Assembly (NCBI RefSeq): GCF_900156475.1
Contig: NZ_FTNR01000007.1
Location: 124,001-188,000, forward strand
Source of the DNA: Natronorubrum thiooxidans
GTDB lineage: Archaea > Halobacteriota > Halobacteria > Halobacteriales > Natrialbaceae
Reading direction: 5' to 3'
DNA length: 64,000 bases
The translations under genes and the position numbers were made by a program. Positions within the stretch are counted from its first letter, which is position 1, and each line of letters starts with the position of its first letter. The notes beneath the pieces are model-generated. The model saw only the letters and a list, made by a program, of their open reading frames with translations, did not search any database and had not been told where the DNA came from. Below are positions 61,970-63,988 of this stretch, in pieces.

Positions 61970-62133
61970 CGTTCTATCTCGCCCATAACTATTCATAATT
62001 GACGTGATGGGCGCGCTATGGGCAGAAATGTGCGGTCGATCCGGTGTCCCTGTACAGCCACTGCAACCGCCGTCTATTCGCGCTGGAGGATGTCTACCCC
62101 GGCAACGAATGCGCTTGTTCCATATTCGGGGCA

Positions 62134-62733
62134 ATGATGTCAACGAGCGTTTCACGAACGGACACTGCGTCGACAGTCCGCACACCGGCGCTGTCTCAAG
62201 ACGTCGCCTTCGAGCTGTTGAGCTGTCGACGACGCCGGTACGTCTTACACTACCTCAAACAAACTGACGGCGTTGCCACCCTCCGTGAACTCGTCTCACA
62301 CGTCGCTGCCTGGGAGAACGGCATTTCCACAGCGGAGGTTACCTACGAGCAACGAACGCGTGTTTACACCGCGTTACGGCAGTCACACCTGCCGAAACTG
62401 GACGATGGGGGTGTCGTCTCGTTCGACGCTGACCGTGGGATCGTCGCCCTCACCGACGCCGCATCGGAACTCGAGGTGTATCTCGATGTCGTCCCACACG
62501 ACGATATCCCGTGGAGCAAGTACTACGTCGGGCTGGGCGTCCTCTGTACCGGGTTCATCGCGGGAATGTGGGCTGGACTCCTCCCGTTTTCGCTGATTCC
62601 ACCGTTGATCGGGACATCTCTGGTGACGGCGTTGTTTACCCTCTCAGCCGTGGCTCACGTCTATCACGACAATCGGATGCGACTCGGGATGAGTGGAGAA
62701 CCGCCGAACGGTACCGGAGGTGAAGGCGCATGA
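62134..62733 (+). CDS. DUF7344 winged-helix protein with C-terminal membrane hairpin
   Basis: 199 residues from the ATG at 62134. The winged helix spans about 20-115 (SQDVAFELLSCRRRRYVLHY, TLRELVSHVAAWENG, TRVYTALRQSHLPKLDDGGV), followed by two membrane segments at about 142-160 and 165-185 (YVGLGVLCTGFIAGMWAGLL). A membrane-anchored regulator is suggested. It overlaps the signal peptidase gene by 4 nt with GGAGGTGA 7 nt ahead, and so is the first gene of a three-gene cassette. Confidence 0.8.
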   Translation: MMSTSVSRTDTASTVRTPALSQDVAFELLSCRRRRYVLHYLKQTDGVATLRELVSHVAAWENGISTAEVTYEQRTRVYTALRQSHLPKLDDGGVVSFDADRGIVALTDAASELEVYLDVVPHDDIPWSKYYVGLGVLCTGFIAGMWAGLLPFSLIPPLIGTSLVTALFTLSAVAHVYHDNRMRLGMSGEPPNGTGGEGA

Positions 62734-63392
62734 CCGTGCCCTCGAGTGTCAAAACCGGGGCTACCGTTCTCGTTGGCGGAGGAGTGTTGATTCTGTTAGT
62801 ACTCGTCGGCATCATCGCCATGCCGGGCCTCGTCGGCGGAAACGACGCGTATATCGTCACGTCTGGAAGCATGAGCCCAACGATCGAGGCAGGTGATGTG
62901 ATCGTCACACAGGACGTCTCCCCGGACGAGATCGAATCTGGAGACATCGTCACGTTCCACGACGGGAGCAATGAGCAGTCGGGCTACATTACCCACAGAG
63001 TCGTCGACGTTGTCGAAGAAAACGGCGAGCGATACTTCGAGCTAAAGGGTGATGCCAACGACAACCCGGACGAAGGACTTGTTCCGGCTGAGTACGCCCA
63101 GGGGGAACTCCACTGGCATATTCCGTACCTCGGACATCTCCTCCTGTTCGCTCGCTCGACTCTCGGCCTGTTCGTTCTCGTGATCGGGCCGGGACTCGCG
63201 CTCGTTGCATCGGGTAGCTGGCAGTTACTTCGGGAGTTTGGCTACGTCTCAGACGGTGGGGCGACCAACGATGGACAGCCCGAACTCGAGGGAACGACGA
63301 ACGAGACGCCGGCGCTGGAGCCCGCCGCTAACGAGACGGCTGGGCACGCCCACACACTCGACGACGGTACCGACTCGGAGGCGGAACGATGA
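62730..63392 (+). CDS. signal peptidase I, archaeal/SipW-like (S26B)
   Basis: 220 residues. One N-terminal membrane segment (about 11-32), then the catalytic Ser in IVTSGSMSPTI (S47) and the His in SGYITHRVVDV (H89), the Ser/His dyad of archaeal and ER-type enzymes. KGDANDNPDEGLVPAEYAQG is the conserved box E region. A second membrane segment is at about 132-152, and the tail is acidic with repeats of Asn-Glu. Its overlap with both neighbours suggests it processes the product of the next gene. Confidence 0.9.
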   Translation: MTVPSSVKTGATVLVGGGVLILLVLVGIIAMPGLVGGNDAYIVTSGSMSPTIEAGDVIVTQDVSPDEIESGDIVTFHDGSNEQSGYITHRVVDVVEENGERYFELKGDANDNPDEGLVPAEYAQGELHWHIPYLGHLLLFARSTLGLFVLVIGPGLALVASGSWQLLREFGYVSDGGATNDGQPELEGTTNETPALEPAANETAGHAHTLDDGTDSEAER

Positions 63393-63988
63393 TGGGGAAA
63401 CACGGTGTCACATTCCTCGTCGGGATCGCGGTTCTCGGACTGCTCGTGACGGCGGTCACGTTCACACCCACGATAGCACTCTTCAGCGACGCGAGTACGT
63501 TCGAGAACAACTCCGTCAGCGCCGCCGAGGAGTGGGACCGCGTCTCCGTCACTACTGACGCTCCGACCAATGTCACCCGCGACGAGCCGGAGCCGGCGAC
63601 GCTCGAGGTCACCGTCCAGAACGACGGTCACGGGCCAATCTGGGCCGAGTACGAGGTGGTCGTCGACAACGAGACCGTCGAAACGGAGTCGGGCGTCCTC
63701 GAGGGCGGTGAGACGTGGACTACGAGCCACAAGTTCAACACCACGACAGCGGATGACATCGACTGGGAAGTTACCGCCAACGGTAACAGCGAGAACGGAA
63801 CGCTATCCGTTCTTGAGGATTCCGCTGGGACAGCTGGAGCGACTACCGCAAGCATCGACGAGACGAGCGACTCGAGCAGCGAGGACGAGACAGACGACGG
63901 TAGTGGGAACGAGACGAACGATGGCAACGAGGACGAGACCAGCGACACTAGCAGTGACCCGGACGAGACCGACTCTGACAGTGAGTGA
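63389..63988 (+). CDS. exported acidic protein, TasA/camelysin-like leader (candidate substrate of the signal peptidase)
   Basis: 199 residues. A hydrophobic leader at about 6-28 (VTFLVGIAVLGLLVTAVTFT) ends in PTIALFSDASTFENNSVSA, very like the ALFSD/AYFSD-type leader ends of SipW-dependent TasA and camelysin proteins. A beta-rich domain (about 55-125, CARDB-like: LEVTVQNDGHGPIWAEYEV) follows, then a Ser/Thr/Glu/Asp tail of about 55 residues. It overlaps the signal peptidase gene by 4 nt. It is likely a cell-surface or secreted protein. Confidence 0.74.
   Translation: MMGKHGVTFLVGIAVLGLLVTAVTFTPTIALFSDASTFENNSVSAAEEWDRVSVTTDAPTNVTRDEPEPATLEVTVQNDGHGPIWAEYEVVVDNETVETESGVLEGGETWTTSHKFNTTTADDIDWEVTANGNSENGTLSVLEDSAGTAGATTASIDETSDSSSEDETDDGSGNETNDGNEDETSDTSSDPDETDSDSE

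Follow-up and report, generated by a model that had tools for sequence, protein, structure and literature searches.

The window, a stretch of 64,000 nucleotides (contig C30:124001-188000 of a 4.2-Mb genome), ends within a locus that is best read as a haloarchaeal counterpart of tapA-sipW-tasA, with a main subunit exported by Tat, a TapA-like starter exported by Sec, and a dedicated regulator. The features of the locus are collected in Table 1. We put the probability that genes A-B-C-D specify the control, peptidase, starter and main subunit of a TasA-type surface fibre at roughly 0.6. According to this reading, A would control the locus as a membrane DUF7344 protein, B would serve C and D as their dedicated SipW-type signal peptidase, C would be exported by Sec and act as starter or anchor, and D would leave the cell through Tat, probably in folded form. 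Removal of both leaders by B, just before the F/L-F-S-D motif, would free an N-terminal strand; C would supply the donor strand for the first D subunit and, having a closed CARDB domain, would accept none, and D subunits would then polymerise by donor-strand exchange. The earlier note on this DNA was partly supported: its interpretation was right in kind, but it had given the TasA role to C, where D is the better candidate.

Table 1. Features of the locus. Positions are those of the window unless a contig is named.
Feature	Position	Strand	Remarks
Conserved promoter-like block TTCTATCTCGCCCATAACTA	61972..61991	+	upstream of A; from aligned upstream regions of A, 12 loci
Gene A	62134..62733	+	DUF7344 at residues 26-104, then two hydrophobic segments (by eye); predicted membrane regulator
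Gene B	62730..63392	+	ER-type S26 signal peptidase, SipW type, by sequence
Gene C	63389..63988	+	small exported protein, 199 aa; proposed TapA-like starter or anchor
C leader, residues 1-30	63389..63478	+	no twin arginine; Sec-type by motif
C tag, residues 31-49 (LFSDASTFENNSVSAAEEW)	63479..63535	+	proposed donor strand; disordered in model
C CARDB (Ig-like) domain, residues 45-144	63521..63820	+	pLDDT mostly >90
C acidic low-complexity tail, residues 145-199	63821..63985	+	from sequence; low pLDDT
Gene D	C30 189036-190883	-	about 1 kb beyond the window, convergent to A-B-C; best read as TasA-like protein

Gene order and co-occurrence of the peptidase with its tag

The overlaps of 4 nt that had been noticed between the three genes are confirmed at both junctions, each of them an ATGA, and order and overlaps recur in relatives beyond chance. 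Named relatives with the cassette are Natronorubrum bangense, N. sulfidifaciens, N. halalkaliphilum, Natribaculum breve and Natrinema mahii. Twelve loci that have the complete cassette were read, the present one and 11 others. The order A, B, C, together with a D gene bearing a Tat leader, was found in all 12. The B/C overlap measures 4 nt in 11 loci and 1 nt in the twelfth, and the A/B overlap is clearly 4 nt in seven, the others having a 10-nt overlap, a 3-nt gap or an ambiguous start. D is convergent in 11 loci and divergent in one (L100).

By its sequence, B is an ER-type signal peptidase close to SipW. It scores 96.1 bits on the archaeal signal peptidase I model TIGR02228 (cut-off 51.85) and 93.1 bits on the Bacillus SipW equivalog NF046067, below the cut-off of 190; a Sec11-type S26 paralogue of the same genome (contig C26) reaches only 18.8 bits on the latter. 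Residues S47, H89 and D108, which we take to be the ER-type catalytic residues, are invariant in 17 sequences, and a C-terminal tail of about 50 residues extends beyond the last hydrophobic segment (by eye). Cleavage of tagged leaders would be the predicted function of B.

The distribution of B follows that of the tag. Matches to B at E ≤1e-15 occur in 39 of 125 family genomes and the TIGR04088 tag in 42; all 39 SipW genomes also have the tag, and completeness is 53-77% in the three genomes with the tag alone. Across the order, the tag is present in 158 of 392 genomes, and the SipW profile found 186 genomes at 1e-15, which split into 153 at ≤1e-34 and 33 weaker than 1e-27. Counting the 153, we found 149 genomes with both, 4 with SipW only, 9 with the tag only and 230 with neither (Fisher p 5e-91, for genomes that are not independent and a cut at 1e-34 chosen after the gap was seen). 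This co-occurrence disfavours an account in which processing of C and D falls to the housekeeping Sec11-type peptidase and B is redundant. Such an enzyme is encoded in the genome, on C26, and ER-type catalysis is common to both, but genomes that lack a SipW-type B have hardly any tagged proteins, and we regard housekeeping processing as very unlikely.

Companions of the C type were sought next to SipW in 96 unique SipW loci, drawn from the family genomes and from 80 named loci. In 61 of the 96, the start of an ORF with an export leader and a SipW-like boundary lies no more than 60 nt from the SipW stop, compared with 35 of 796 control genes, and the ORF overlaps SipW by 4 nt in 43 of the 96, compared with 11 of 796; the regular expression behind these counts errs both ways, with L019, L136, L153 and L189 doubtful positives by eye and L099 and L131 missed. 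TasA-like phmmer hits, part of which may be to the leader only, were obtained in 75 of the 80 named loci. Order, co-occurrence and adjacency support the gene linkage and dedicated processing that the earlier note had proposed, with cleavage by B as a prediction.

A twin-arginine motif is present in 173 of 209 tagged ORFs. Most of the other 36 come from bacteria, DPANN or archaea that are not halophilic, or belong to the C-type companions of haloarchaea; a few are haloarchaeal frames with a misread start or frame, or tag-bearing SipW proteins. From these counts it therefore appears that, in these haloarchaea, the large tagged proteins are Tat substrates and the companion a Sec substrate, as the leader motifs of D and C suggest for the present locus. 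The adjacent ORFs of L106, L117, L143 and L168 are exceptions and carry an RR motif.

Fusion-like arrangements were seen in three loci (L103:11711-13279, L136:5962-7008 and L153:5941-7290), where SipW has a tag-like leader segment at or near its own C-terminus, as though joined to a companion C; at L103, the segment stands on the C-terminus of SipW itself (by eye). An HMM built from D leaders matches the SipW frames of L136 (E 4e-4) and L153 (E 6e-4), and more weakly those of L133, L169, L170 and L173 (0.001-0.18). In the second SipW/TasA locus of the present genome, on contig C16, SipW is split into two overlapping frames of 134 and 209 aa (L019:6111-7141). We read the split as a frameshift or assembly error, and the SipW of the window may therefore be the genome's only intact copy.

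Folds and leaders of the two predicted exported proteins

The frame of D encodes 615 aa, with a start probably near 190718. Its leader contains SRRNVLAGLG, with twin arginine, followed by GTGAFFSDKETFKDNRLVAGALDLKVDWQ. Sequence similarity to TasA is confined to the leader: D scores 23.4 bits on PF12389 (cut-off 22.5) over the leader region only, and, on TIGR04088 (cut-off 19), 22.6 bits in the genome search and 18.5 bits when the 560-residue protein is used; its relatives score 26.9 and 27.7 bits. A profile of D relatives matched none of the PDB sequences at E up to 1.

The fold is that of TasA in a modelled relative. The AlphaFold model of the Natribaculum breve protein (548 residues modelled, mean pLDDT 70, pTM 0.74) has TasA structures as its top PDB matches, with Z scores of 8.2 for 5of1 (149 residues, 3.0 Å), 8.1 for 5of2 and 7.9 for the TasA fibre 8aur; the best unrelated structure gave 4.9. 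Foldseek also ranked TasA first, at an E value of 0.05, and the fold call is therefore based on the gap in Z together with gene context. D is best read as a TasA-like protein and the main subunit. It exceeds twice the length of TasA and has long insertions, so that 149 of the 548 modelled residues are aligned.

For C, the leader motif (TPTIALFSDASTFENN) and the acidic tail are present as the earlier note described them, the tail being 55 residues long. The note had placed the leader boundary after LFSD. In TasA, according to the part of the source available to us, Phe stands at P2' of the cleavage site (PMC10269814); by this analogy the cut in C would fall before LFSD, between Ala30 and Leu31. 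The leader had also been likened to those of SipW-dependent proteins; C scores 14.4 bits on TIGR04088, below the cut-off of 19. The HMM built from D leaders alone gave C of the window an E value of 0.004 and also found the C proteins of G101, Natribaculum and G031, with E values of 0.003-0.008 for the four; these matches are weak, yet correctly placed. C diverges rapidly, with 25-28% identity to four of the five named relatives and 52% to the fifth, and in the family search full-length C-like matches are few (89% in G101, 55% in G049, 41% in G015, weaker elsewhere).

The folded part of C is a CARDB domain, which speaks against the TasA-like character that had been proposed for this gene; the TasA-like protein would be D, on the other strand and outside the window. 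In the structure model of C, the N-terminus and the tail are disordered and flank a compact beta domain that spans residues 45-144 or thereabouts. The domain best matches the CARDB domain of PF1109 (3idu), with a Z of 12.7 over 98 residues at 2.2 Å, followed by many other Ig-like structures that include the Vibrio biofilm protein RbmA (Z 10.6). TasA does not appear in this list of matches; under the rules of the tool, such an absence carries no weight against a fold. Searched with a profile of C, the PDB sequences gave one match, at E 0.061, and on the TapA model TIGR04087 C scores 14.3 bits, below the cut-off of 80.

The architecture of C is nevertheless that of TapA. TapA combines a free N-terminus, an Ig-like domain, a disposable tail and a start/stop overlap with SipW (PMC10151520), and is proposed to hand the first donor strand to TasA (PMC9674648), as far as the parts of these papers available to us describe it. 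In C, we likewise find a free N-terminus, an Ig-like domain, a disordered C-terminal tail and the overlap with SipW. The CARDB domain could also simply bind a ligand. A corresponding alternative is that B is dedicated to C and D, and that both are monomeric matrix or adhesion proteins that form no filament, C being a CARDB ligand-binder and D a large secreted protein of TasA fold. In favour of this account, CARDB is what C matches best by fold, and the core of C is similar to portions of frames of 600-1100 residues in many genomes. The great length and insertions of D fit it as well, and one C16 relative seems to carry a VWA-type insertion (by eye). Against it, the tag segment that follows the cut is conserved in C and D, which would be expected if it served as a donor strand and not simply as the place of cleavage. 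We consider the monomeric alternative rather unlikely, and prefer the fibre reading.

Compared with B. subtilis tapA-sipW-tasA, the fibre locus proposed here shares a dedicated ER-type peptidase that is paired with two tagged substrates, and the TasA fold of the predicted main subunit. In both systems one substrate is small and has a free N-terminus, an Ig-like domain, a disordered tail and a start/stop overlap with sipW. By contrast, the haloarchaeal main subunit is larger, begins with a twin-arginine leader and is encoded convergently, outside the operon; the putative starter is CARDB-like and a DUF7344 regulator is part of the operon; and there is little sequence similarity beyond the leader. 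The archaeal bundling pili AbpA of Pyrobaculum calidifontis are described as a TasA-related archaeal fibre in the available parts of PMC10151520 and PMC9674648; the AbpA structure 7ueg reaches a Z of only 4.5 with the D relative. The haloarchaeal Tat-fimbriae (tafi) are built from TafA, a surface-fibre subunit exported by Tat (PMC12687288, available in part), and so resemble D in the predicted export of the subunit, but D scores only 18.1 bits on the TafA model NF052520 (cut-off 190), over the leader only. In B. cereus sipW-calY, SipW adjoins camelysin/TasA-like proteins, one of two camelysins having been suggested for the TapA role (PMC10151520, in the part available); the haloarchaeal companion, in contrast, is not camelysin-like and carries a CARDB domain. 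In the titles and abstract openings of the literature searched, we found no description of a haloarchaeal TasA/SipW system, nor did that literature yield a paper naming SipW together with haloarchaea, and we make no wider claim. Should the fibre reading be true, the TasA donor-strand fibre of Bacillus biofilms, also known from one hyperthermophilic archaeon, would be found in haloarchaea at large as well, in a broad set of them, and two export routes would meet at one peptidase, raising the question of how a subunit that has folded in the cytoplasm keeps its donor strand inactive before it is cleaved.

The DUF7344 gene and the palindrome before D

Gene A matches PF24035 (DUF7344) at E 5.8e-31 with 107.1 bits (cut-off 27.8). 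A PDB search with A gave no match of note, its three best matches lying at E 0.42-0.78, and assignment to a known PDB fold was dropped. A profile of the SipW-linked DUF7344 proteins scored 286-378 bits in exactly those 14 of the 125 family genomes searched whose gene adjoins SipW, and the next-best match anywhere reached 248 bits. The profile was built from 11 of its 14 top loci or their copies, and only G015, G021 and G066 are therefore independent in this ranking. Because each of 12 genomes searched holds 23-43 DUF7344 copies, chance adjacency to SipW is unlikely. No mention of DUF7344 was found in the literature searched.

We aligned the upstream regions of the 12 cassette loci with MAFFT. 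Upstream of A the alignment contains a block TTCTAT...CATAACTA, and GTGTATATATAC is found upstream of D in 11 of the 12 loci. The exact pattern TTCTATCTCGCCCATAACTA occurs in 6 of 103 loci, every time upstream of A. The palindrome TGTATATATAC is found at 15 places in 1.26 Mb from 103 loci (four of them counted on both strands), all upstream of a TasA-like gene. It precedes D in 15 of 17 loci with a DUF7344 gene directly upstream of SipW and in 0 of 79 other loci (table 15/2/0/79, Fisher p 1e-15, with 12 of the 17 loci from one family and hence not independent). L115, a DUF7344-SipW locus, has a copy with two mismatches, and 170 control tagged genes have at least three mismatches to the palindrome. 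The second SipW locus of the genome, on C16, is without a DUF7344 gene directly upstream of SipW.

The symmetry of the palindrome and its exclusive pairing with A suggest that it is an operator, although it may be an unusual TATA box and no more. The regulator of its own that the earlier note had assigned to the cassette gains support from the SipW-linked DUF7344 subfamily and the matching palindrome, with A as the putative DNA-binding protein. DUF7344, with its many copies per genome, thereby gains a first concrete candidate for a target site, the palindrome before D. A more elaborate scheme can be drawn in which D would be exported folded by Tat and C unfolded by Sec, both to be met by one SipW-type peptidase, A would switch D through a GTGTATATATACAC operator overlying the D promoter, and a T-arm-like hairpin in the leaders of many fibre genes would tie their translation to a tRNA-binding or -modifying factor. 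Taken as a whole, we hold this scheme to be doubtful, slightly more so than the monomeric alternative above.

Leader hairpins and surrounding genes

The hairpin in question, GGTTCGAHTCC, which we take to be the tRNA T-arm consensus, was present in the 5' leaders of 63 of the 150 Tat-tag genes examined. Its stem covaries, with both sides changed in 22 cells compared with 5.2 after shuffling and 0-3 in slid controls. A model of the hairpin gave 86 hits over 100 sources totalling 1.2 Mb, and 78 of these hits stand directly before an ORF with a Tat leader; the sources searched are SipW-centred or nearby, and part of this count is due to genes duplicated in tandem together with their leaders. One hit lies before SipW itself, 77 nt upstream, in Halorussus ruber (L129:5825-5910), hinting at shared control. 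D of the present genome has a degenerate copy of the hairpin only, and the window has none.

Examples of the element are L182:2197-2285, L161:746-834 and L113:9838-9927 (- strand); in many TasA-like genes it lies immediately ahead of the start codon, and it is often followed by a CCCC/GGGG hairpin. An Rfam search of five loci returned four matches at E up to 1, none of them on the T-arm element. ARAGORN called a tRNA-Arg over the copy at L154:846-933, which is probably a false tRNA. An outer 7-bp acceptor-like stem was found in 35 of 85 copies, compared with 24 with shuffled flanks, and is not claimed. The MFE z-scores of eight T-arm leaders were unremarkable in seven cases and -2.54 in one.

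Downstream of the cassette lie two more DUF7344 genes, a gene for a DUF1616-like protein and sugar genes, conserved in G075, G062 and G021; the product names of the sugar and DUF1616-like genes are our own assumption from the sequence. This stretch of sugar and surface genes, with its two DUF7344 genes, is conserved in several genera (L002:6026-19712, L196:142-2377), and a surface-glycan neighbourhood is plausible. The cassette might accordingly be part of that neighbourhood, modifying or presenting glycans without forming a fibre. Conservation of the downstream genes speaks for such a role. Against it, SipW, tag and TasA-like genes by themselves suffice to identify the SipW/TasA loci in most of the other genomes read, and none of the frames read at the C16 locus of the same genome is a sugar gene. 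We judge a glycan function improbable, if marginally less so than processing by the housekeeping enzyme.

Near the cassette, a 531-aa exported protein with extremely acidic repeats of the VPADED type is encoded at L002:10197-11792. The same genome also carries a TafA-like locus on contig C42 (L020, C42:196000-206000), whose best hit to NF052520 scores 111 bits against the cut-off of 190; this stretch also contains an S26 hit, and about 1.6 kb upstream lies a DUF7344 gene.
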